A DNA stretch of 64,000 bases from Crossaster papposus (lineage: Eukaryota; Echinodermata; Asteroidea; Velatida; Solasteridae). The notes under the pieces were generated by a model. That model had not been told where the DNA came from. It worked only from the letters and a program-made list of their open reading frames with translations, and searched no databases. This document shows, one piece after another, positions 4,700 to 19,876 of this stretch. The first letter of the stretch is position 1. Every line of letters begins with the position of its first letter. The position numbers and the translations under genes are program-made. Where the stretch lies: the NCBI GenBank assembly GCA_037893245.1, contig JBAIAA010000531.1, forward strand, positions 2,356,001 to 2,420,000, read 5' to 3'.

Positions 4700-6787
4700 T
4701 TCAACTCAAACCACTCCCCGTATAACAATTTTAAGGCTATATAACTAAATAACTATAATTAATATAACTAAATTATAAACCTAAAATGTAAAAGTAAAAT
4801 GGGATAGTCTGAAAATATAAAATAACTAAATAACGATATACCAATATAACTAAATAACAAACAGATAATAAAACAAACAAACAAACACCCCACCAGGCAA
4901 ACAATGAACAACAACCGACAAATACATGTATTAAACTAATGTAGATTAACATTTAAATTGAATTTCTCAGTGAAACATATTCAAAGAACGAACATAAAAT
5001 GGTAAGATAAACTTGAAAAATTAAACCCCACTAATCCACAAAAATGTGTTAAAATAGAATAAAAATAAAAGTAAAATTGCATATTAAAAAACCTTAAAAA
5101 TTAGAAAGTTAAAACATTAAAAATGGAACTTTTGAACACATTCAAAGATGCATTTTGGATGACGTGTTCAGGCAGACTATTCCACTCATTTGCTGTACGG
5201 AGGAAGTACGAGTACTTAAAACAATCAGTTCTGGCAAAAGGAATGTTTAGTTTTAGGCTATTATCCTTTCTCCTAATTCTAGATGCTGGGTGAAACTTTT
5301 TAAGGGAATTAATGTTGATACAACCCTTAACAATTTTATAACACATAACCAAACGAAAGAATTTTCTTCTAGTTGGGAGATCAGTCCAGCCTAACTGATT
5401 TAATAGAGTGTCATAGTGTGAATGCCAGTCTCTGCAGATAAATCTAACACTCTGGTTTTGTACACGTTCTACAACAGAGGAGTGGTTTAGCCTGTATGGG
5501 TCCCAGGCTATGCAACAGTAATCTAGTCGTGATCGGATAAGAGAAATGTAGAGCCTCTTTAAAATATTGGCTGAACAACTACCAAAATTTCGTTTGATAA
5601 GTCCTAACGTTTTATTGGACTTGGTATAAATGTCATTGCAGTGATCGTTCCAGTTTAATTTGTCATTTATCATGACTCCCAGATATCTTTCACATTTAGT
5701 GGCGGATAATATATTATTTCCAATACAATACAAATGTTGGCTAGTATGGTGCTTTCTAGACATTCTCATGACCTTACACTTGTCAATATTAAAATTCAAT
5801 TTCCATTGATCTGACCATTTACATAGTGAATTCAAGTCAGATTGTAAAATCTCAATGTCTCTATTGGCGGCAATGGGCCTATATAAAACACAATCATCTG
5901 CATATAAACGGATAGTGGAGTGAATATTCTCAGAGATATCATTAATAAAACACAAAAATAATATTGGTCCGAGAATAGTACCTTGCGGTACACCTGATTT
6001 TACCTTAGTCCATAACGAGAAATTTCCGTTTATGGACACTCTCTGTTCTCTGTCTCTGAGAAAATTCATAATCCATTTAATATTTGGGACACCAACACCG
6101 TAAGTAATAAGTTTGTTATGCAGAAGGTCGTGACAAACTCTGTCGAAAGCTTTAGCAAAATCTAAGAATATAATATCAACACTATGCCCAGCATCTAAGT
6201 AGCTGCTCCAGTCGTGTATAGCATCAATTAGTTGCGTATCACAAGAACGTTGGGCTCTAAAACCGTGTTGATTATCATCAAGAATATTGTTGTTATGAAG
6301 GTGCTTAATAAGCTTGTTACAAACAATCCTTTCAAGTGTTTTACTAACGACAGATGTAAGTGAAATAGGCCTATAATTACTAGGATCATCTCGTTTACCT
6401 TTCTTAAATACGGGAACCACATGAGCCCTTCGCCATTCATCAGGCACAATGCCTACTTCTAGAGAGGCATTAAACAGTTTAGTGAGCGAAGGTGCAAGGT
6501 ACTCAGCTCCTTCCTTTAGAATTCTAGGAGATATGTTGTCAGGGCCTTGACTTTTACTTACATCAATGTCTTTAAGTAATTTACAGACTTCGTATGAAGT
6601 ACACCTAACATCCCTCATCATGTCTACACTGGGCTCCAGATTAGAAATATGATCATCAGGGTCAACGTGAATATTGAACACCGAGTTAAATTGGGTATTC
6701 AGAGCTTCAGCCATTACTTCTGGAATAGTAATTTTATCACCGTTGACAGTTAAACATTCAATAGAGGGGTTATCCGACTTAGATATC
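4700..6787 (-). mobile_element. Non-LTR retrotransposon 1, 3' part (reverse transcriptase plus 3' UTR)
   Basis: The open minus-strand frame 6787-5101 encodes the RT half of a Jockey/CR1/L2-group element. Visible motifs in order are DNISPRILKEG, FKKGKRDDPSNYRPISL, IIFLDFAKAFDRVCH, GVPQGTILGPILF and the catalytic RLYADD, then the thumb-like C-terminus with RSRLDYCCIAWDP and FFLRTANEWNSLP-type blocks. No stops interrupt the ORF. The AT-rich 3' UTR runs to about 4700 without an obvious long poly-A. The start at 6787 is artificial: the upstream endonuclease half lies at 17642-18806, separated by the 10.85-kb DNA transposon. Confidence 0.9.
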
Positions 6788-7198
6788 TTAAAGAGGAACT
6801 CAAAAGGTGATTCGTTTTCCCATAATAAGCCTTTAAACAACAGCAAATATATCTATTTCCTCAATCCAATATGTAAAATTACCACATCTGTCCTATTTGT
6901 GTGAATAAAAAAGTCCCAAACATGGGCCGCCGAGAAACCCAAATGCCCGATTTCCGAAACACTCATTATGTATTCATGATATGCATGTGACCTCTAATAC
7001 GTCACCGGGAGAAACAAAAGTAAACAGAGACTGTTACTAGAGACGCGTGTATGCACATTATGTACAGTGGTGTACATGTATTGTACATGACCGTGTGCAG
7101 CATGCATTTCGCGATAATTTTACAGTAAGTTTTCCTCTTCCTAAAATTACATTTTTGGGTGGGAGTGGATAGGAGACATCTTTATAAAATATAGCAAC

Positions 7199-7590
7199 AT
7201 GCCCCGAGCTTGTGCTGTTGGAGGCTGCAACCGAAACGGCTACAAAAACAAGGAATTGTCGTTCTTTCGGTTCCCAGCCGACAAGCCGCTTTTTCGTTGT
7301 TGGGCAAGGTTCGTGAACACCACCCGAGTAGGTTTCAAACCTTCCCGGTGGTCGTTAATTTGCCAGGAACATTTCGAGAAGGAGTCAATAGATGAGTCTA
7401 GTGTGACTCAAAAGAGGTTGGGGTTACGAAAAAGTTTAAAACTGAAACATCGGTCAGTCCCATCTAAGAAAGCCCCTTCTAGTACTTCAAGTTCTAGCCC
7501 GCTACCGTCAGCTTTTCGGCCGTCATCTCAGGGGAGACGCAAGGTGCGTCGGAAACTCTTCACAGCGTTTGAGAAGCGAGAGCGTGCCAG
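7199..7590 (+). CDS. Transposase exon 1: THAP zinc finger
   Basis: It starts MPRACAVGGCNRNGYK at the first ATG. C5 and C10 (CxxxxC) and then C-x2-H in LICQEHF give the C2CH zinc site of a THAP domain, with the expected central Trp (RCWARF) and aromatic residues between. THAP domains bind DNA and are found in P-element and Kolobok transposases. The exon ends GCCAGG|GTAAGT after a Ser-rich linker and a basic stretch (RRKVRRKLF). It lies about 400 bp inside the transposon's left terminus, where the 5' end of the transposase gene would be expected. Confidence 0.85.
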
Positions 7591-8029
7591 GGTAAGTAAA
7601 TGAATGCAAATGTTTTTTACTTGGTTTAGTATAAAAACCTCCATTTTTCACTAGTAAAATTATTAAAGAAACCACTTCAAAACAAGACGGGAAATTGACA
7701 GTTAGACCGCGAAATCATTGAATCTATTTCGTGAATAAAATCTTCCCAAAGTTTGTAACTAATATAGTAATATACATTTACATCATTATGAACTTATACG
7801 TTTAACGTTATTTAGCATTTTGTCAACGCGTCTGGGTGAAAAATTAATCGTTTTTACCAAGGCTTGTAATTATTAGGCCTGTGTGAGTAGACTTTTATAA
7901 AATAGTTACACTTAGGATAGTCCAAATACCTGTGCTAACGTTATAGTTATCGCTTTTTGAACATGATCTGGCGAGTCCGAGAAACTACAATCTCTAGAAA
8001 AAAAGAAACACAACCCCATCATTAACCAT

Positions 8030-8612
8030 CAACACCATCATGATTAAAATCATAGTACTTATATAGGTGTGCAAGTTTACGATCTTCTAGAAAAGTGACA
8101 TTTCCAGTTGAATTTCGAGAGCTCCCTGCCATGTTCAACCGTATTGTTTTCGTTTGCATTTAAAATGAAGTCGTTAACCTCGATCACGGGTACGGTAGCA
8201 AGCGCGCAGCGAGCAAACGCGAAAACGTGATTGGATTGTATATCAATGATCAAACTGTATTTGAGATCGAGTGTGAATTGACGTGTGTAAATCCTACACT
8301 GGTTACCGTCAGAATTGGTGCGGTCCTAAATGGTAATGTGAACCAATGTAGGTCTAGGATGTGCACGCGTCATTTATTACTCTTCACGACAATTTTTTCT
8401 ACACTCGATCTCAAAAACAATTTTGTTGTATATTCAAATCACGTTTTCGTAACGTTTATTTGCTGTGCGTACGCACTTAACTGTGATCGAGGTTAACGAC
8501 TCCATGAATGCAAACGAAAAAAATACGGTTGAAAATGAGAATGATTGTAAATCATGAAGATCATACTTTTAACAGCACACCCGAGTATCATGATTTTAAT
8601 CATCGATGACTA
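8030..8612. mobile_element. MITE-like inverted repeat in transposase intron 1
   Basis: The left arm has GATTAAAATCATAGTACT then ...GATCTTC... then CGTTAACCTCGATCAC. The right arm repeats these as inverted complements (GTGATCGAGGTTAACG at about 8482 and AGTATCATGATTTTAATC at about 8585). The arms are about 150 bp and imperfect, and the unit is roughly 580 bp. There is no coding potential. It is nested in the Kolobok-like element. Confidence 0.75.
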
Positions 8613-9154
8613 TTTTGTGACCTGCTCCCGCAAAATTAGAGTAAAGTTGACGTTTTGATATTTTGAAATACTGGTATTTCCAGATTCCTTGAATTCTTAG
8701 CTTTAAAATGAAATATAATTTATTGGGTAGGGTATTAATGCCGCTGTCGCTACATTTTACTTCTTGGGTACGCTCAGTAAAATCAAATTTAGATTTTTTT
8801 TCTGCTAATATTTTGCAACAAAATACTTGGTACAGTAGTTCGAAGGGAAACATATGTGAAAGTTGCGCTGTGCTAGCTATTATATTGAGTATATGATTGA
8901 AAATAGCCGATTTGACAGGGGGAATCGTTTTGGGGATTTTGGCATGATACAATTACGCCGTTTTCACATTTGTATCTCGAGTGGTGTGTCTAGTAATTTT
9001 GTGGCCGTTTTGAGGGTGAAATTTGATGGTGTTGTGTTACTTTTTTTTTTAGAGATTGTAGTTGTTATTGTAGGCCTAAGGTAAAATAAAAGTTTCTCGT
9101 CTAATCTTTTTGGGGAAAAAAAGAGGATGCGGGCACTTTTGGGGGCTTAAATAT

Positions 9155-9959
9155 TTCGTCACCGTTTTCACGAAGAGGCAAATTGAGCCTTTCACGGTCT
9201 GAACAAACTTTCGAGATAATCGCTTGTAAAGTTTGTCCTTTTTTCGTTTGGCAGTTTGAAACATAAATATTCATAGAATATACAAGATTAAGGTATCATG
9301 GGAAAGAAGAGATTTCAATCTTCTTAAATATAGCAAACGTTAAGAAAAATAGGTGATTAGTTTTGCAGAATTAATCAATTAATAGAATTGCCTCTTCGTG
9401 AAAACGAAAAAAACGATACATTAGCAAATTCGCCCGTGGCTGTGAGAGTCAGAATGTATACATTTTCCCATTGCGCCCCCAATTTGTCTCTTCGTGAAAA
9501 CGATAAAAGCCACTTCGCGACCAATTCGCCCAATTCGCCTCTTCGTGAAAACGCTAAAGTGACTAAGCGCACCAAAGTGCCCTTCATAAACACGTTGAAG
9601 TCAACGCTATTTCGAATTTGCCTCTTCGTGAAAACGCTAAAAGCCACTTCGCGACCAATTCGCCCAATTCGCCTCTTCGTGAAAACGCTAAAGTGACTAC
9701 GCGCACCAAAGTGCCCTTCATAAACACGTTGAAGTCAACGCTATTTCGAATTTGCCTCTTCGTGAAAACGCAAAAGGGCACTTGAGGACCAATTCGCCCA
9801 TTAGTTAATTAGGTTAATTGTGATTTTAATGATTTTGTGGATGTATAACTTCACCAGGTTGTAGAAATTGCAATATTTAATCGTTTTCATCAAAAAAAAT
9901 AATTTCGATAAATAGACGATTTTTCATGAAATTCGCCTCTTCGTGAAAACGGTGACGAT
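9155..9959. mobile_element. Inverted-repeat element with internal copies of its own terminal motif
   Basis: The left terminus TCGTCACCGTTTTCACGAAG (9156) is matched by its reverse complement ending at 9958. The subterminal core CCTCTTCGTGAAAACG recurs in direct orientation near 9390, 9487, 9539, 9621, 9673, 9755 and 9935, partly within a tandem duplication of about 133 bp (9484-9750). There is no transposase ORF. Repeated transposase-binding-like motifs inside a MITE are the likely explanation. Confidence 0.75.
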
Positions 9960-10272
9960 TTGTACATGTATAAATTAGACTTCATCGCAGAATTATTGTT
10001 GCATCAACATAATAACTAGACTCCACTCCTGCACACTATGTTTAGAAGACTGCAAAAGAGAACAAGCTTATTTAGGAGAAAACGGCCGATGTTTTAAAAA
10101 AAAAGGGGGGGAAGGGGGTGTTTTGATGCAGCAGCAAAAAGGATGCGCACTGGGACGAGGTAATAATTTATTTGGCTTAATAAACAGTTTCCATATTTAA
10201 TGATTGACTTTGTAAATAATGTACATGTGTACGTCTGTGGTTATCAGGACTGTTATTTGTCTTTTTTGATAG

Positions 10273-10395
10273 GTCTTGGATGAAGCACTTTTGGACTATC
10301 GGCAGCACCATGGCCACATTCACAGTACAACTACAAGTTCTGAATCCGACTCCGAGGCAACAGTTAGTGCACCTGGCACTCCCATGTTCCTGCCA
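10273..10395 (+). CDS. Transposase exon 2
   Basis: Acceptor TTTGATAG and donor CTGCCA|GTAAGT, phase 0 at both ends. It reads VLDEALLDYRQHHGHIHSTT and then a Ser/Glu-rich stretch ending GTPMFLP. It is a linker between the THAP finger and the catalytic region; no domain is recognised. Confidence 0.6.
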
Positions 10396-10631
10396 GTAAG
10401 TACCGATTTCATGTGCTTAAAAGGATTAAAAATTTGGCCAATATAGTGCATGTTGATGGTACATGTACGATTAAGCACACATCTGTGTTTAACTGAAATA
10501 TTTATAGTCGGGCAGCTGAGGCCTTTCGAAAATTCCCTTTTACATGTAGTGTTTGTTGAAATATTTTTTTAATATAATTATGCTTAGTACTTACACGGCC
10601 ATTAATTAGTATTCTGGCTGTTAAATTGCAG

Positions 10632-10791
10632 ACCCCTCTGAAGACGTTACCACACCTCCAAGCCTCTCGTGAATTGGTGCAACAAACAGATGTGTTTAAA
10701 ATCGACATAAACCCCTGTGCACCACCAAAAACGTACCATGTGCGGTCCAGACAAAATCAGACAAATCCCCGATATTTTACACACTCTCAAG
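10632..10791 (+). CDS. Transposase exon 3
   Basis: Acceptor TAAATTGCAG and donor CTCAAG|GTAATT. It reads TPLKTLPHLQASRELVQQTD then INPCAPPKTYHVRSRQNQTN. A polar linker, phase 0 in and phase 1 out, which matches exon 4. Confidence 0.55.
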
Positions 10792-11223
10792 GTAATTATG
10801 TGACTTCGTTTTTTTCACGCCCGTTTATGTTTTCACGCCTGTTTATGTTTTCATGGCAAGTAAATTGGGGGTAGTATTTCCCAAAAGCAATTTTTCTCTA
10901 ACGCTGGTCGGCCGACGAGCATTGGAGATTGATATAAAAATACCACTTGTCTTGAAAATTACAACACATCAGGTGCCATAATTTTACAGAATGCTTTAAA
11001 CCATCGTTCACCAACAGTCCAGTAATGTAATGCATTATAATTTGGTAGTAATTTGTTTTAAGTTTGCAAATGTTTCCTTTAAAAAACATATTTCCTTTAA
11101 AAAAAAAGTCAATGCCACTTGACATTCCCAAGCTTCCAAGACATATGTGATTGTTATGTTTATTTTGAATTTGACTGCTTATTATGAATTATTTCACCTT
11201 TGACTGCATTTCTAATTGTATAG

Positions 11224-11470
11224 CCTCACAAACCCTGAAGGTGCCGCCATTGCAGTACAAGTGTACTGCAACACAATGCGAGATTGTCGAACTACCGTCA
11301 TTGAAGAAGTTTTCACGTGAAGCAGCACCGACCAAATGGAAGGCAAAACAATTAAAAGACACGGAGGATGAAGCTGAAAGTATGGGGTCTGTGGAGTTTG
11401 AGCCACTGTCGAGTGGTGATGACTACACCCCGTCCAGCAGGCCTGACTCAGATTCAGATGTTGATTTCAG
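11224..11470 (+). CDS. Transposase exon 4
   Basis: Acceptor AATTGTATAG and donor TTCAG|GTATAC. It continues in phase with ASQTLKVPPLQYKCTATQCE and ends in an acidic Ser/Asp-rich segment (SGDDYTPSSRPDSDSDVDF). Acidic linkers before the catalytic part are common in this transposase group. Read on in isolation past the donor it would hit a stop; the splice is preferred because exon 5 continues in the right phase. Confidence 0.55.
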
Positions 11471-11721
11471 GTATACTCGCATATTAAAATGGTCATATAT
11501 TATTCCTATATTTTGTTGCTGTATGCAGCATGCAGAGAAGGCATCATCACAAATTGCACAACTCTTTATGCAGGCTTGTACCCTGGATTCCCTTTTTAAG
11601 TCCCCTTAATATGTAAACACCCTGCCCATACCTGTTTTTCATTTTACCTTTTAGTCTTTGGCAGTATGATCGAATACAATTTGTTAGTGGTATTTTTCCT
11701 GTTTACTTTGTGCATTCTTAG

Positions 11722-12759
11722 TTCCGATCTTGAAGCTGAGCCATCTTTTGGGGACAAGAAGTACATAGTCTTCGAAGGCAATCTCCTGGCACTATTTAAG
11801 AGATGTCCCAAGTGTGCCGGTGTGGACGGTAATTCTGTCCCCCGGTAACATTGTCCGGGGGGACAGAATTACCTAGGTAAAAGTGTCCCCCTAGAGCCGT
11901 TAATTCCGTCCCCCTCCAGTTTATTATGTCCCCTCTCTAGGTAATTTTGTCCCCCAATGTTCCACACATAAGTGGTTATTTTGATGTTATTTCAATGAAA
12001 AGCCCATATGGTATTTATTATTTGGACTTCTGTTCCCTTCATCGATTTATCAAAATAGAAATAAAAATATAAATAACTGTATTAATTAAATCAACCGATC
12101 TACGTTTCTGCGCGAAAGGGAAATTAGCGGTAATCAGTATTTTCAGACTTCTTGCACGCGTACAAATTCTGTATACCCAGCACGAAAGTGGCAGCACTTT
12201 TGACCACCTGTAATTTGTAGTACGTTACACATCCTACAGTCTGCCACAAATGATGCACCATGAAGAGGTGAACCTGTACTACACTGGTTGTTGCGTCTGG
12301 TGGGTGCTAGACTTGTGACGTTGCACGGGACAATTTTACCAGGGGGACACGTTTAACGTTGGGCAGGGAGACAGAATTACCTGGAGGGGGACAGAAATAC
12401 CTAGGTAAATGTGTCCCCCCGGACAGATTTACCGGGTCACGGCCTGGTAAGTCTGTCCGGGGGGACACATTTACCAGGGGGGACAGAATTACCTTTCACA
12501 CCGGCCCATCCAAAAGAAAAGCCTGTCGACCACTTGGTGGCACGCTTGTAGAGGTGCATCAGACCTGCCAAGTCAGAGCTTGCAGCTACTGGCGGAAGTG
12601 GAGGAGTCAGCCAATGGTTGGCAATTCTTCAGCTGGAAATTTGATGCTTGCTGCTGCCTTAGAATTATCTGGAGCATGCACCAAGAGAGTGTTACAAGCG
12701 CTAGCTTGTGTCAACATGGCTGTCTTCTGCTACCAAACCTTCTTTAATTATCAAAGAAG
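11722..12759 (+). pseudogene. Transposase exon 5, interrupted by a 684-bp element
   Basis: Acceptor TTCTTAG and donor AAAGAAG|GTATGT. The left part reads SSDLEAEPSFGDKKYIVFEG then NLLALFKRCPKCAG. The right part resumes from 12503 with PSKRKACRPLGGTLVEVHQT, ACSYWRKWRSQP, GNSSAGNLMLAAALELSGA and FFNYQRR. CPKC, GTL..V...C..C..WRSQP and the hydrophobic helix before the catalytic block match THAP/Kolobok-type transposases. The two parts are contiguous in frame if the 684-bp insert (11821-12504) is removed; left in place it adds in-frame stops. Confidence 0.7.
11817..12504. mobile_element. MITE-like element inserted in a coding exon, 4-bp CCGG duplication
   Basis: The left end CCGGTGTGGACGGTAATTCT and the right end (reverse complement CCGGTGTGAAAGGTAATTCT) are inverted repeats that continue into GTCCCCC-rich blocks. 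The centre repeats GTAAT..TGTCCCCC and its complement several times. CCGG occurs at 11817-11820 and 12501-12504 and is read here as the target duplication. The insert length, 684 bp, is a multiple of 3. An intron reading is less likely because no AG precedes the resumed coding sequence. Confidence 0.8.
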
Positions 12760-12950
12760 GTATGTAATGTGCACAGTATGCTTGATAATACATTGTCGTT
12801 TTGACAAGCAGAAACTAATAAATACTAGTGGCCCAATATGCCCTTCAGGATTGAGACACACATTGATAATGACTGTCTGAGATTAAAAAACTAGTTTGAT
12901 TTCAGACACAATTTAAAAAAAAATTAACTTAAATACAATTTGTGCTACAG

Positions 12951-13146
12951 ATTTCTACAGCCAGCTATTGTCGATGTCTGGAATGAAGACCAGAAAGACT
13001 TGATCGTGGATATGAAATCCCATCGCAGAAAAGCTCATCTTGGAATGGACATGAGAGCTGATAGTGTAGGGCATACTGCCAAGTATGGTTGCTACAGTGT
13101 GCTCGAACTTAATTACGGCAAAGTACTGCATATTGAGCTAGTGCAA
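12951..13146 (+). CDS. Transposase exon 6: first catalytic block
   Basis: Acceptor TGTGCTACAG and donor GTGCAA|GTAGGT. It reads FLQPAIVDVWNEDQKDLIVD, then HLGMDMRADSVGHTAKYG, then YGKVLHIELVQ. The D-S-x-G-H-x-A-K-Y-G segment followed by a beta-rich stretch is the conserved core of Kolobok-like DDE transposases, and its Asp (RADS) is the likely first metal ligand. That assignment is from remembered family patterns. Confidence 0.7.
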
Positions 13147-13499
13147 GTAGGTTTGTTTTTTAGTTTTAGTTTGAATAACAATTTTGTTTCTAATCCATTT
13201 AGCAATCCCAATGTGCATATCAGTTCCATTTTTACCAGCATTCTAATATCAGCTGGTTGTGGGAAAGGGTTGCAGACATACATCACGCAAAGAATAAAAC
13301 AGGTGCACAAAACATTTAATTTCTTTCGACTTGGCTACGTCTGCCTCCAAGTAGGTCTCCATTAAAATTAAATTAAATGTGCGGTAAATGTAACAACTGT
13401 GCTACCGATTCTCTATCAGTCGGTGCTTTTTGACGGCAATGATCAACTGATTTTTTTTTTGGTCAGTCTATTTTCTGGAGGCTTTGTTTTTCTACACAG

Positions 13500-13674
13500 A
13501 AAAGCGAGACCGCGTATAAATCTCCACTGATGGAGAAGGAGGGCCTGGTCCGTACAGTCAAATGGCTTGATGATAACAAGGTGGACATCGAGACAATTGT
13601 AACAGATCGCCATAAACAGATCACGAAATACAATTCCAGCCGGTTTACCTACTTGACCTCAAATGACCTTTGAA
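13500..13674 (+). pseudogene. Transposase exon 7, truncated after the TDRH motif
   Basis: Acceptor TCTACACAG, phase 0. It reads KSETAYKSPLMEKEGLVRTV then DIETIVTDRHKQITKY. MEKEGL and TDRH.QI are conserved, and the Asp of TDRH is the likely second catalytic acid. The frame then departs into non-family sequence (NSSRFTYLTSNDL) and stops. The downstream part with the third acidic residue is missing; the transposon sequence to 14230 lacks it. This copy therefore cannot encode a full transposase. Confidence 0.65.
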
Positions 13675-14240
13675 CTCAGTCCCAACTATAATATGAATAT
13701 GACCAAGTTGTAATTAGACCTCAATTTTTTTAACCAGTTCGTGCCGAAGGACGTGTATATACATGCACATTTTTACCGAGATTCAAAACGGCCGGAAATG
13801 CATGGGTGTGCTTCCCAATACCATTGGCCTGAACACGCCTCGGATCGAGTTTCAATAAAAATAATCCCGCACCTCGGCTCGGTGAATGTTACAATAATCC
13901 CGGTGCATACTGGTTAATGAGACGCATTTTACAATTTCAGCTTTTTTAGAACTTGACCTCAAATGACCTTTGAAGATTAAGGCCGTGTCCGTATTGCTGG
14001 CTTTGCCTGTGACTTTGGCTGATGCTGTGCTGTTGCTATGCTGTTGCTATGGGCGGTCATTGTCATGCATAGCAACGGCCGAAGTAACAGCCAAAGCCAG
14101 CAATTTGAACATGGCCTTACACGAGTGATCCCATTGTTTCTTCCTGAACAAGACAACAATCGACAAACAAAAAATGAGCCCCAGATTTACATGTAGTTCA
14201 TGGAACTGCCTTCCAAATTTATTGTCTTTTCCTTCCTTAC
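13655..14240. repeat. Direct repeat and filler replacing the transposase 3' end
   Basis: CTTGACCTCAAATGACCTTT occurs at about 13662 and again at about 13952. The interval holds AT-rich sequence, a C/G-rich stretch with no ORF and a short palindromic AGCAACAGCACAGC-type patch near 14020-14060. Nothing coding is seen. It looks like later insertion or deletion that removed the transposase C-terminus. Confidence 0.5.
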
Positions 14241-14263
14241 TGGAAATTGCAGGTTTAGGGATC

Positions 14264-14435
14264 TTACAGTTCTTCCAGCGGAGGATATTGAAAGCCCTTG
14301 TATGTTCCTCCTGGACTGGGATATGCCTCGTGTACCACTCTCATGATGCATGATGGTAACGGCACTCTGTTGTGCCTCCCTAGGTATCCCCAGCACCACC
14401 GAACTACTTGTCGATAGGCTATATGCCGGAATTTC
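14264..14435 (-). CDS. P2X7-domain protein, last exon
   Basis: Acceptor TTTTTTCTTTCAG, stop at 14264. It reads KFRHIAYRQVVRWCWGYLGR then RVPLPSCIMRVVHEAYPSPG and ends YKGFQYPPLEEL. AYRQ..RW.WG.LG...R...PSC....I...FP...G.Y.GF is the C-terminal half of the P2X7 cytoplasmic ('ballast') domain family. That fold binds zinc and guanine nucleotide in the vertebrate receptor. In invertebrates it is common as a stand-alone protein. No channel segment is present here. Confidence 0.85.
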
Positions 14436-15385
14436 CTGAAAGAAAAAAGTCTCACCGCATGATTTTCACATAGTTATACCAGTATTAATACAAACCGTGC
14501 ACATACCATTGTCAGCGTTAGCTAAACACCGTTTTTTTCTTTCTCTTAAACATCTTTTTGTAACCCAAAATTTTGATTCTGAGCTTCGGGTGTTCCCCTT
14601 AATTTTTCTATATGTAACCCTATCCCCATTTTCCAGAAACTTCTTTCCGCATCATGTGGACTTCAATTGTTCACAGGTCCACAGTACATATGAAGTGTTA
14701 GTACAGTGTACACACAATTCATGGTTGTACACAAATCCCCAAAACAAAAAATTATAATTTGCAATGAAACAAGCACAGGTTTAAGTACAATATAGTCCCC
14801 AAATTTGGGACTCTCAAACCACTGAAAACATGTAACACAAGAAAATAGACTGGCACATGAAACAACCAGTCCAATCATCGCACAGTTTAAATGTTTTGTT
14901 TTTACACGGTTGACCGAATCAGCAAAAAAGCCTTGTAAAGGTGTATTGGCAACACACTTTTAATGCTGACTTAGTCAACTGTGTCAAATGAACCATGTAC
15001 ATGTACTATTATTAGAACACTAAAGAGAAAGTCTGGTCAAACAGATGGACAAATGACGGACATGTAAGTCTAGTCTTGGTTTTCAAAATGAAACCATGTG
15101 TTATGATGTGGCTTTACTCTTGGTGCAAAATGTTGAAAAAAACGCTCCTTTAAAAATTGATTTGAGATCTCAAACTTGGCTGGTGAAATACCGAGGGCCT
15201 CTTCCTTAGCCACGTGAAACTTTGGAAAATTTTATCAGATAAAAAGTGAGTATAAAGTAAATGCCAAAATTCTTCTGTATATTATTATATTACTTTTAAG
15301 TGGGTGTAGGAGGGATGGAAATGGGTGTAGGAGGGATGGGAGTGGGACAGGGTCCGCATAAAATCTTGATTAAAAAGACACTCAC

Positions 15386-15512
15386 TTGTCCCTTTCTCCT
15401 TCAATGGCTGTAGCCCCATACTGTTGTCTATAGCCATAGTAAGCTGTCTGAAGTGTGCCTGGGTTCAAACACGTTGCATCAAACCACGGGTGTTCTGTCA
15501 AGCATCTGGGCC
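15386..15512 (-). CDS. P2X7-domain protein, middle exon
   Basis: Acceptor GCAATTAG and donor GACAA|GTGAGT. It reads CLTEHPWFDATCLNPGTLQT then AYYGYRQQYGATAIEGERDK. C(I/L)T.HP.F...CL....L..A...Y...YG is diagnostic for the P2X7 cytoplasmic domain. It splices in phase to the last exon (AA|G). The phase to exon 1 does not match directly, so a Cys-rich exon is missing or has been lost between 15520 and 16510. Confidence 0.85.
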
Positions 15513-16516
15513 CTAATTGCTAGGTACCATTCTCAATCCTTAAAAAATCCTCCAATTGCCCTACCCCCAAAATGTATTCATCTGCAATACTCTAAAATTC
15601 TCCAAAGTTTTGCACAATTTTAAAAATGAGTGATACCCACCTTCTCCAAAATCTTTATTTGCTTCAATCGCCATTCATGCTCAATCCTCCAAAATCATCT
15701 AAAACTGCAACGAGGGTTTTGGAGGATTGAGGTGGGTTAGGGTCAAAAGGCTTTAAAAGAAAATATAGATCCACTGAAAGCTTTTGTGATAAAGAGAACA
15801 AAAAAAAAACACTATTTTAATTTGGACTGCCATGTCGAAACACTGTGTGAAAATCTGCAGGGTTAACTTTGGAAAGAATTCCACACATAGACATCACTGC
15901 ACAAACCCTGAGACTGGTCTGTAAACAAATAGATTCTCAGTTAATTCTAAGATATTTTCTGAGCAAAATTTGACTTTTTAGGACGTTATTGCTTTCTGGT
16001 GGTTGGAGTTTGATTGGGAGAACATTTGTGATGTCCGTATATAAAATTTATGTTTAATACGGACACAGTTTTGATTTTTTGAGGGCAATTGCAGGGTAAA
16101 ACGACGATAGCGTATGCATGCAATAACAAACACACACGACTATAACAAACTAGTCTGTAGAGAAAAAAATTGCAGAAAAAAAAGTCCTATAACTATTTAA
16201 AAGCATATATATAGGCCTACTTCACAATCCCTGTTTTTGTTGTTTATTATTATTACCATACCAAGTTAAGTACCAACAATAGGCAATACCATTGGCTTTC
16301 TATTGCCATTATATTGGCCTAAAAAAAGTAGTCATGGGTTTAATGTTGTTTTAGTCTACACTTAATAAGCCAACATAAAAGGGAAAAATAAAAATAAATA
16401 AAAAATACTAGTGCTACTAGTAGCTACTGCTAAACTGTACTGCTACTTTAGTGCTACTGGCTGCTAGTGCTACTTGCTAGTGTTAAATCTGTTCTTTTCT
16501 CTATGGTTAAACGTAC

Positions 16517-16791
16517 CACTGGGTATTTCCTACACGATTGCGCCGGCGTGCTGTTTGTTCTTGTTCCCTGGTCTGGATTTGTGCATCGAACGTTGTTGCT
16601 GTGCCTGTGGTCGGTTGGGCTACAGGTTCAAATCGGTACGGCTCAGCACCACGAACATCATTTACCGGCCCCATTCCATCATCCTCGACGTCAATGAGTT
16701 CATCTTCGCTGAGATATGGTTCATTAACTTCATTCCCATCGTCACTTTCACTCGATGAAATCGACATTATTTTTGATGGACGAGTTGCCAA
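16517..16791 (-). CDS. P2X7-domain protein, first exon
   Basis: It starts MATRPSKIMSISSSESDDGN, is acidic to about residue 45, then reads EPYRFEPVAQP and ends RRRNRVGNTQW at donor CAGTG|GTACGT. The PYRFEP and RVGN..WC pattern immediately precedes the zinc-binding Cys cluster (WC.C..C) in P2X7-domain proteins. The following Cys exon is not visible on the minus strand between 15520 and 16510. The gene lies about 850 bp inside the right terminus of the transposon and converges on the transposase gene. Confidence 0.8.
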
Positions 16792-16892
16792 ATTGGTCTG
16801 GTTTCTACTACTTTATCAATGGTTTATTCGCAGAGAAAGGGTAGTCTGGTGGCAGTCACAAAGTACGACATATACGAAGTAACATGATGTCA

Positions 16893-17120
16893 TGTACACG
16901 CACGTTTGTTTATGGTGTAAATCGAGGAGTTTCCTTTGTTCCTCTCGAAAATTTCCTTTGTGTGTACTCTAACGTTTTTCGACGGCTCCCATTGGTTTTG
17001 TACACGAATCTCAATCGAGGTCGTCCTCGATTCTAACCCTAACCCCAATTCACCTTCGTGTCGCCAGGTATGTGTCCTCGATTTACACCATAAACAGACG
17101 CATGTATACACGTGCGCGCA
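16893..17120. mobile_element. Short hairpin MITE near the transposon's right end
   Basis: TTTATGGTGTAAATCGAGGA at about 16911 is the reverse complement of TCCTCGATTTACACCATAAA at about 17075, with further complementary CACGTG/TGTACA-type ends. Total length is about 230 bp with a loop of about 145 bp that includes a CTAACCCTAACCCC patch. No ORF. Confidence 0.7.
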
Positions 17121-17622
17121 CGTACATGTACGTATATGAACCAGCCTTCATGCGCGAAGTCTGAAACTTTGGCGTGTTTGGGGATTGTATTATGGGCCAT
17201 GGTTTTGGCCAAATGACAGCCAAGGTTGTTTTTATCACTTCAAAATAAACTTTTCGACTTAAAGCAGTTTTGTCTTAACTCTATTTAACCCATTTTTTTG
17301 TCATTTTAAACAGTTTCTTAGTGTAGAAAATACGGTTTTTTTTAACGCTGTTTACGGTGAAGTGTCGCGGGAGTCCGTGAATTTTTTCACTGCATCGCGC
17401 GCGTCGCGGTGATCGCCTTTTTTATCTCGGTGACGTCACATGCTAAACGTAAACACAACGATTTGACCTCGCGTGTTTCGCATTTTTGCCAGAGTGGGCG
17501 CAGCGAAAAAAACGCCCTCTTTCCCCCCCCCCCTCCTTGGTTTTTACCAGCAAATCCACTTTATTTGTATTTTTTAATGGTCAGTCTATCTCCAAAACAC
17601 CGTATCTCAAAATGTATGATAT
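17121..17622. other. Right subterminal region of the transposon
   Basis: No exon found. It contains T-runs and a C-tract (17522-17534). It is the likely promoter side for the minus-strand P2X7-domain gene, but I cannot point to a clear TATA box. Confidence 0.35.
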
Positions 17623-17641
17623 CTTTTGAGTTCCTCTTTAA

Positions 17642-18806
17642 TATAATTCCAAAATTTCTTAGGATTACTGTCGATACCTGACACAATGTGATCAATATGA
17701 TTTGCACGATTACGTTTTATTTTACATTTAACCTCATGCCTGACGTCTTTGTATCGTGACCAGTGCTCAGTACGGTTATATTTTTTGGCATTCTTAAAAA
17801 GTCTATTACGTTTCCTGATTAATTGTTTAATCTCGCCCGTAATCCATGGAGTGGACTTACGTTTATCGCAAACAACCTTGTGAGGTACAGTGGAGTCAAC
17901 AATATCAAAAAGTAAATGTTTCCAAGACAGCCAAGAGGACTGGATATCCCCATCTTTTATAGTATCAAGCAGTTTAGATTGCGCAATCCTTAAACTGTTA
18001 CGAAATTTGCCAAAATCAGCTTGCGAGTAGAAGTATACCTTCCTTTTTGCACCGGGAATCTGTTTCAACCCGCATGCACACTCAAAAATAACAACATCGT
18101 GATCGCTTATACCTGGGACAATATGCACATTTAAAATAATGTTCGGTTCACTACTAAATAACAAATCTAAAATATTACTACAAGACTCAGAGATTCTGGT
18201 CGGCTCGGTAACGTGCTGGAATAAAAAATTACATTCGATTAGAGCGATCATATGCTGAGAGAGCTCAGAATTGTCAGATGGTACAGGGTACCCGTCAACC
18301 CATTTTAGCTTAGGCAGATTAAAGTCACCCGTGAGGATAGTATTTCTGTGTTTAATACCGCTCTTATTAAGTAGCAATAGAGACCTACTTAACTCATTGA
18401 TAATATCAATTCCACTATTAGGAGGTCTATAAAAGACTCCTATAAAAATCGACTCTTTGTTTTTACGAACAACTTCACACCAAATAATCTCACAATGAGT
18501 GTTCAAGTCAGGCCGATGAATAACAGGGAGGCCCTTTTTAAATGCAATAAGAACACCTCCCCCATGTCTATTTCTATCTTTCCTGAAAGCAGAATATGTC
18601 GGAGGCAAACATTCAGCGGAGTTGATATCATCACATAAATGGGATTCGGTGATGCATATTACATCTGCATTCTCGAATTCAATAAGCGTATGGAAATCAC
18701 CTCTTTTATTTAATATGCTACGGGCATTTAAGGAAATGCACTTTAGGTTTTTAAGTGTATTAACACGTTTATAATTTACAGGGGATTTGTTACTTGGTTG
18801 ACAAAG
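17642..18806 (-). mobile_element. Non-LTR retrotransposon 1, 5' part (endonuclease)
   Basis: A minus-strand open frame that encodes an APE-type endonuclease. LKCISLNARSILNKRGDFHT, ICITESHL, RKDRNRHGGGVLIAF, FIGVFYRPP, LTGDFNLPKLKW and GISDHDVVIFE are the expected catalytic blocks. The frame ends ...PKKFWNYI at the TTAA target site. Codon continuity with the RT half at 6787 is exact. Together the two parts give an ORF of about 2.85 kb, typical of CR1/L2/Jockey-group elements. Confidence 0.9.
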
Positions 18807-19045: not shown

Positions 19046-19876
19046 TTGTTTTGGATTATTCATCTTACAATAGTAAGTAGTCTTAACTCCATGGTAAGTC
19101 CGACTTGGGTCAAGTCTACAGCAAACGCCATTGCAGCAGCCGCAAAATGGTCCCATTCCCGATCCCTGGCCGGGCTTCTGTCACCCACGGACGATAACTT
19201 ATTCAAGACGGCGCTACAGGGATACAACCGGCAATCAGCCGCCCCGACAAAAAGAAAGGAGCCCATTACTCCGGATACTCTGGAGAAGATCTTGGCGAAC
19301 CATGGACAACCTGGGGCAACTTTGTCCGATCTTAGAACTGTATTCATTTGTTTTTTAAGTTACGCTGGTTTTCTCCGATTCAATGACATCTCCAATATTA
19401 GGCGTAAAGATTGTACCTTTTACCCAGATCGACTTGTTATATATTTAGTTAAATCTAAAACCGATCAATTTCGGCAGGGAAACAACGTTACAATTGCCAG
19501 AACATTTAAATCGACTTGCCCTGTTGCCATTGCCGAAAGATATCTGTTAGCCATGGGCGACAGTCCCGATTCTGAATTACCAGTTGTACGCCGTTTAACT
19601 ACTTCTAAGAAAGGGCTTGTTGCCACTTCTAACCCTTTAAGTTACAGTAGAACACGTGAGATGGTACTTGAAGCCATTAAGCCTTTTGTACCTGACATTG
19701 CCAAGTTTGGTCTTCACAGCCTTAGGTCAGGCGGTGCATCCGCAGCGAGTAATGCGCTTGTACCTTCTTGGCTAGTAGCGCGCCATGGCAGATGGAAGAC
19801 CGACAAGGCTAGACACGCTTACCTAAAACCAAATATCGAAGCTGAGCTGCTGCCGTCAAAGTCCCTTGGAATTTGA
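19046..19876 (+). CDS. Tyrosine recombinase (DIRS/Crypton-type integrase)
   Basis: 276 codons from the ATG, although the frame is open further upstream. The catalytic set is visible: Arg111 (AGFLRFNDIS), Lys136/138 (VKSKTD), His224-x-x-Arg227 (GLHSLRSGG), His247 or Trp250 (RHGRW) and Tyr259 (HAYLK). The SAM-like N-terminus precedes KKKEPIT-type sequence (KRKEPITPD). Tyrosine recombinases of this kind belong to DIRS/Ngaro retroelements or to Cryptons. No RT/RNase H lies next to it, so it is either a Crypton-like element, a DIRS remnant or a domesticated copy. The ORF is intact. Confidence 0.8.
   Translation: MFWIIHLTIVSSLNSMVSPTWVKSTANAIAAAAKWSHSRSLAGLLSPTDDNLFKTALQGYNRQSAAPTKRKEPITPDTLEKILANHGQPGATLSDLRTVFICFLSYAGFLRFNDISNIRRKDCTFYPDRLVIYLVKSKTDQFRQGNNVTIARTFKSTCPVAIAERYLLAMGDSPDSELPVVRRLTTSKKGLVATSNPLSYSRTREMVLEAIKPFVPDIAKFGLHSLRSGGASAASNALVPSWLVARHGRWKTDKARHAYLKPNIEAELLPSKSLGI

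Follow-up and report, generated by a model that had tools for sequence, protein, structure and literature searches.

The 64,000-nucleotide stretch of the Crossaster papposus genome analysed here (the window) contains, at 6788..17641, a Kolobok-like transposon with two convergent genes, one encoding a transposase with a THAP domain and the other KolX, a protein with the ballast domain found in the cytoplasmic tail of the P2X7 receptor. Comparison with other copies in the genome points to a Kol0-kind Kolobok copy with both genes broken, inserted at TTAA within a long interspersed nuclear element (LINE), whose KolX is a selected partner of the transposase, a reading to which we assign a probability of about 90 %. 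The element adds a new member, though a defective one, to the Kol0 kind, and the pairing of its genes is already explained in print. Kojima & Bao 2022 (PMC9587614) report KolX as the second protein of the Kol0 lineage, similar to residues 476-595 of human P2X7 and with the ballast fold; in their proposal it is from KolX that the P2X7 tail, and likewise Nanor, probably arose. The original prediction, made from the window alone, knew of no described transposon encoding a P2X7-domain second protein and suggested that the vertebrate P2X7 tail may have been captured from such an element; it was anticipated on both points by this paper. A literature search on Kolobok and KolX found this paper only, and one on ballast domain, transposon, domesticated and P2X7 (three of the four terms) found it together with one review; in the parts of PMC11700175 and PMC13093298 covered, P2X7 occurs in the reference lists only. 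New here are the co-variation of KolX with the transposase, the constraint on KolX, a compact KolX family and ballast genes closer to P2X7 than is the KolX of the window.

Boundaries and gene content of the window copy

The element is flanked by TTAA on the left (6788..6791) and right (17638..17641) and ends in 15-bp terminal inverted repeats (TIRs), AGAGGAACTCAAAAG at 6792..6806 on the forward strand and its reverse complement at 17623..17637, which match at 15/15 positions and leave 10,846 bp between the two TTAA. It interrupts a reverse-strand LINE frame whose 3′ half (reverse transcriptase, RVT_1 in Pfam) lies at 5101..6787 and whose 5′ half (endonuclease, Exo_endo_phos_2) lies at 17642..18608, the joined frame continuing further upstream. 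Removal of the element with one TTAA yields a single open LINE frame of 951 amino acids. A query of 200 bases of the joined flanks, searched across the genome, gave 18 matches, 14 of them spanning bases 1-200 (12 at 98-100 % identity, two at 84 and 90 %), the best being an uninterrupted LINE site identical over 200/200 bases at C352:3502484. Of the remaining four matches, one extends over bases 6-200 and another over no more than 1-97; the last two come from the window itself, whose halves (1-100 and 97-200) share exactly the TTAA. The boundaries and the target duplication are firm, as the original prediction had claimed from the perfect repeats, the flanking TTAA and the repaired LINE frame, and empty sites have now been found elsewhere. 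The match over 1-97 is a LINE copy at C370:380155-380251 that follows the query only as far as the TTAA, perhaps a second insertion at the same site.

The transposase gene runs on the forward strand from a THAP exon with its ATG at 7199 (7199..7600, the 3′ limit being provisional; PF05485, E 1.6e-13), which has tblastn matches in 13 of 14 diverged loci. A probable exon at 10273..10443 and two open stretches with probable exons at 10578..10871 and 11175..11606, all of approximate limits, are conserved in 4/14, 4/14 and 3/14 of these loci. Comparison with other loci identified an exon in two parts (11726..11815 and 12539..12757), split by a nested insertion of about 680 bp at approximately 11820..12501, and a further exon at 12952..13146 with the motif GMDMRADSVGH, which we take to hold the first catalytic D. 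The splitting insertion is absent from two of three sister copies described below (B and C); in the third, D, a longer insert occupies roughly this position. The exon beginning at 13530..13631 contains VTDRH, by our reading the second catalytic D, and lacks its DVWH end, since at 13629..13636 lies the junction of a deletion of about 1.7 kb relative to B, C and D. The lost sequence encodes, in those three copies, HYFDVWHVAKG, a stretch with the H2CH motif, the SSVEAFH exon that we take to carry the catalytic E, and the C-terminus. B, C and D are among the genome-wide matches to this E exon and the window copy is not.

KolX lies on the opposite strand, so that its P2X7 exon and the THAP exon are convergent. 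Exon 1 was placed by comparison with other loci at 16510..16767, with its ATG at 16767, and exon 3 (14267..14443) encodes the C-terminal half of the P2X7 ballast domain (PF20478, E 2.2e-10). Exon 2 survives as a remnant at 15385..15507, its CSCGNC...CICC part and with it most of the zinc cysteines having been removed by a 217-bp deletion (junction 15502-15508); the stretch is open in B and C, and copy D is without exon 2. Two further nested insertions with their own inverted ends (9156..9958 and 16898..17101) are absent from B, C and D. By sequence comparison both genes of the window copy are broken, later deletions and nested insertions having presumably disabled them, and it would thus be movable only if another copy supplied the proteins. 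The original prediction called the element complete-ended, and completeness holds for its ends and not for its genes; the THAP and P2X7 domains and their convergence are likewise as predicted, the pair being no longer intact in this copy.

Sister copies, classification and the transposase-KolX pair

We surveyed the 1.02-Gb genome for TTAA joined to the TIR, allowing at most one mismatch, and found 21 sites against 1 for a control with the pattern backwards. Eight of the 21 sites pair, by our pairing, into four elements of 10.9-16.8 kb: the window copy, B (C531:2127912-2139727), C (C444:858438-873274) and D (C117:2290922-2307721). All four are TIR-bounded, have TTAA on both sides and AG...CT ends, and carry both genes, with matches to THAP (in copy C over residues 28-134 only), KolX exon 1 and the P2X7 exon. 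Their internal direct blocks share 96-100 % identity, and the resemblance breaks off only a few bases from the termini, which makes them separate insertions. Every element above 10 kb that pairs exact or one-mismatch TIRs of the AGAGG type holds both genes between unrelated flanks, the kind of support for which the original prediction had asked. Eleven further sites are unpaired within 20 kb. A TIR scan of 18 long loci, mostly chosen for a THAP and a P2X7 exon close together, found ends in 11 (A, B, C, D, L019, L022, L023, L024, L026, L032 and L039) and none in the other seven, several of which are cut off by the limits of the stretch examined. THAP is present in 18/18 of these loci and the E exon in 10/18, which are not unbiased counts because of the way the loci were chosen.

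The 4-bp TTAA duplication and the 5′-RR/YY-3′ termini of the four copies are those of Kolobok. The DDD/E residues with a C/DxxH motif that characterise Kolobok transposases are present in B, C and D (TDRH, DVWH and SSVEAFH) and absent from the window copy. A THAP domain and an H2CH motif are said to be usual in Kolobok (PMC6004289); the THAP domain was identified by Pfam and visual inspection showed the H2CH stretch in B, C, D and another 14 rows, and the window copy lacks it. The match of the transposase to the Pfam Mutator-like transposase is below cut-off (E 7.4e-6, 25.6 bits vs 26.5). A KolX with the P2X7 ballast domain, which marks Kol0, is present as judged by its sequence match to PF20478. 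The described Kol0 element Kolobok-1_XT (PMC9587614) is alike in its TTAA target, RR...YY ends, DDD/E with DxxH and ballast-fold second protein, the likeness being one of features rather than of direct sequence comparison; unlike it, the window copy is broken and enlarged by nested insertions. The Kol0 hosts named in that paper are vertebrates, annelids, cnidarians and sponges.

PiggyBac elements also target TTAA and are remarked on in PMC9587614, and on this ground alone the element could be assigned to them. Such an assignment has a negligible chance of being right: the AG...CT ends follow the RR/YY rule by which PMC9587614 separates Kolobok from piggyBac, the transposase has a THAP domain and the weak sub-cut-off Mutator-like match, and in the sister copies DVWH lies between TDRH and the E exon. 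We also rejected KolobokP, for which long terminal direct repeats are expected, as no direct repeat joins the two ends; its His-Me finger nuclease gave no match in the ten open pieces of the element scanned.

To what extent the two genes occur together was judged from a genome-wide search with PF20478, which gave 112 exon matches (a few loci giving two), from 82 matches to the E exon, and from a THAP search that scored the best 150 of 1315 candidates, so that the pairing counts are lower bounds. Thirty-seven of the THAP matches lie ≤ 20 kb from a P2X7 exon and 35 of these are convergent; a P2X7 exon lies within 15 kb of 40 of the 82 E-exon matches and is convergent in 39/40, one of the 39 belonging to a tandem array 11.8 kb away. 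The convergent order predicted from the window thus recurs in diverged loci. In 14 loci with both genes close together, compared over up to 251 amino acids of transposase and up to 145 of KolX, the distances between transposases and between KolX proteins are correlated with a Mantel r of 0.918, a value reached in 0/9999 permutations. The two trees, a comparison that the original prediction had proposed, agree in their main groups, several nodes being weak.

The ratio of nonsynonymous to synonymous substitution rates (dN/dS) for KolX is 0.085-0.111 in 11 of the 13 computable pairs (18 pairs in all) and 0.137 and 0.583 in the other two, both very close pairs; for the transposase it is 0.066-0.089 in five of six computable pairs (14 in all) and 0.223 in the sixth. 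KolX and transposase therefore look to be under constraint of a similar degree at the level of their coding sequences. Among 25 KolX rows, some of them near-identical copies, 23 have RH at the positions of rat R546/H547 and 21 have R at that of R578, which is H in the four copies of the window family, and R574 is not kept (numbering from alignment to P2X7 and PMC7016195).

Several observations weigh against a Kol0 element with a selected KolX partner. The Kol0 label is drawn from the presence of KolX and general features rather than from a tree with named families. No P2X7 exon lies within 15 kb of 42 of the 82 E-exon matches (a single tandem array on C721 accounts for 15), so that some related transposases may do without KolX. 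Two of the 21 TTAA and TIR sites, each one mismatch away, bound a 2.0-kb element on C259 with no E-exon or KolX match and no THAP match among the 150 best candidates, and a 9.1-kb element on C53 of a second family, described below, has THAP and E exon and no KolX match. The 14 loci of the distance comparison were picked because both genes had been found close together. The closest KolX pair, L027-L031, has a dN/dS of 0.58, and all these ratios are rough and non-independent because dS is mostly > 1 and pairs share loci.

If the pairing were a one-off capture, a host P2X7-domain gene would have been acquired by one Kolobok copy alone, unless it merely happened to lie next to it. The elements on C259 and C53 would fit this, as would the division of the 112 P2X7-exon matches, of which 54 have a convergent transposase mark, three a same-strand mark and 55 none within 15 kb among the matches listed. 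The last number overstates the unpaired exons, because only the best 150 of the 1315 THAP candidates were scored and compact elements bounded by TTAA and TIRs account for at least seven of the 55; 48 of the 112 matches have neither a transposase mark nor the ends of the compact family. The original prediction had named as adverse signs both same-ended copies without the P2X7-domain gene and a domain gene found mostly at host loci; all four copies above 10 kb have the gene and the C259 element and, in the second family, that on C53 lack a match to it, and the genome-wide matches divide as just given. Four bounded two-gene copies and the convergent order in diverged loci argue against a single capture, as does the correlation of distances, and we reject it as very improbable. 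Harder to separate is a KolX that acts on the host (by countering silencing or regulating host genes, for instance) and not in the transposition reaction. A separate gene under constraint is also expected of a host-directed factor, and P2X7 shows related ballast proteins at work in a host receptor, although prolonged joint inheritance with the transposase is compatible with both roles; we regard this as possible but the less likely course. With KolX as partner of the transposase, the transposase would cut and paste the element, KolX would make its movement efficient or regulated, the zinc-stabilised ballast fold would serve as a binding module, and selection acting on the element would keep KolX.

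Certain loci show repeated arrangements. At C721:234745-318432 a tandem array has 16 E-exon matches, mostly about 5.24 kb apart, and no P2X7-exon match; its period, read at C721:234500-240500 (L040), repeats exactly over a 760-bp overlap and has no TTAA-bounded inverted ends. Clusters of four and three E-exon matches mostly about 1.9 kb apart, also with no P2X7-exon match, lie at C191:837396-843145 and C513:416927-421603 and are perhaps duplicated host genes of Kolobok origin. Same-orientation pairs of KolX exon 2 occur at C856:132245/137447 (5.2 kb apart) and C1008:296370/302164 (5.8 kb apart), possibly in tandem elements. Within the window, outside the element, a forward-strand open frame of 276 amino acids (19046-19876) is tyrosine recombinase-like by eye and has no Pfam match at E 0.001.

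A compact family that carries KolX

We identified a second, compact family through L039, a TTAA-flanked element of 3,373 bp including both TTAA, with inverted ends matching 16/16, which has THAP and KolX and no exon of the DDE core. Its end pattern occurs at 25 sites in the genome against 0 for the control, and 18 of these form nine elements by our pairing, seven sites being unpaired. Seven of the nine (two on C116, one each on C220, C246 and C432, and two on C603, including L039, L006, L007 and L008) are 3.3-3.4 kb long, all with both KolX exon matches and none with an E-exon match. The other two are the C53 element and a 9.6-kb element on C838 with THAP, E exon and KolX. C838 matches the compact family at 92-95 % in the three longest direct blocks and at 84-98 % over all direct blocks.

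The plain reading of these sequences is a recent internal deletion that spared a gene near the end. It is probable that nothing more is involved and that KolX confers no advantage: the probable parent C838 is closely related to the compact elements, THAP and KolX lie near opposite ends so that a central deletion spares both, and within the family KolX differs at 2 synonymous and 2 non-synonymous codons of 226 (noncoding, 25 of 2418), too few for selection to be inferred. Against this, KolX is open in all three compact copies read (L039, L007 and L008) and THAP is frame-shifted alike in each. Coding divergence from C838 (10 synonymous and 7 non-synonymous codons of 226) is also below noncoding divergence (135 of 1475 ungapped sites), a difference part of which may predate the deletion. 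A bolder reading is that KolX helps its own carrier. KolX-coding elements without a transposase core are not described in the main-text parts covered of PMC9587614, PMC7016195, PMC6004289, PMC7776569, PMC11700175 and PMC13093298.

A further likeness is to the Drosophila P element, which shares with the window family a THAP DNA-binding domain and has shortened non-autonomous forms that still code for protein (PMC7776569); the C/DxxH motif is common to P, Kolobok, hAT, MuDR and Dada (PMC9587614). Its transposase is described as unique for its use of guanosine triphosphate (GTP), which is bound by an insertion domain within the transposase itself (PMC7776569), whereas the compact Kolobok family keeps KolX open and has THAP frame-shifted. 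One might speculate, by analogy, that KolX is a nucleotide-binding partner comparable to this GTP domain. Shortened P elements such as KP code for THAP-containing repressors.

Ballast genes and the origin of the P2X7 tail

The ballast domain of P2X7 binds two zinc ions and guanine nucleotide (PMC7016195, PMC9859053) and is homologous, with that of Nanor/ZCD (Rump et al. 2020, PMC7016195), to KolX, as seen in the PF20478 match and in a comparison of KolX exons 2-3 of copy B with P2X7 chains (best E 1.3e-5, 28 bits). Unlike P2X7, KolX has no P2X channel part, and the two differ at R574 and, in the window family, at R578, as described above. A small group of ballast genes on C284, C711, C754, C686, C429 (838137) and C633 (including L001, L002, L003 and L053) has no transposase mark within 15 kb among the matches listed. 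A C284-type gene matches P2X7 at E 2.6e-12 (50 bits), in a comparison whose query differs in extent from that of copy B, somewhat favouring the C284 type. A tree placed P2X7 in one group with C284 and C754 (support 78), joined in turn by C1404 (97), on very long branches; every other non-P2X7 row has 26-33 % identity to the P2X7 chain 9e3m. Similarity between the C711 copy and C284 extends for 2.3 kb and then ends, and the C429 copy has stops. There are hints here, the tree being only suggestive, that a C284-type ballast gene may have been the direct donor of the P2X7 tail, which leaves a deeper Kolobok origin uncontradicted.

A P2X-ballast fusion in this genome was rejected, as all 12 P2X-receptor exon matches (12/12) are on contig C373, for which no ballast exon is listed. 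Rump et al. report that ZCD loci share two linked marker genes from sponge to sea urchin, an ancestral synteny and a point in favour of fixed host loci, and an Ixodes protein with a 'TAHP' domain ahead of ZCD; the parts of PMC7016195 covered do not mention transposons.

Taken furthest, KolX would be a guanine-nucleotide- and zinc-binding transposition factor that gives its own carrier an advantage, with stripped elements spreading, and the P2X7 tail would derive directly from a ballast lineage separate from these Kolobok elements (the L001/L053 type) rather than from a KolX such as the window has. We think this combination improbable; if true, KolX would supply as a second protein what the P element has built into its transposase as a GTP-binding domain.

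P2X7, a drug target, acts as a receptor in inflammation, and the function of its large cytoplasmic tail is not settled. Kolobok families in which KolX appears tied to the transposase and strongly constrained may provide material on the first role of the ballast domain, and the compact KolX family together with ballast genes closer to P2X7 would allow a closer test of the published idea that the P2X7 tail derives from KolX.

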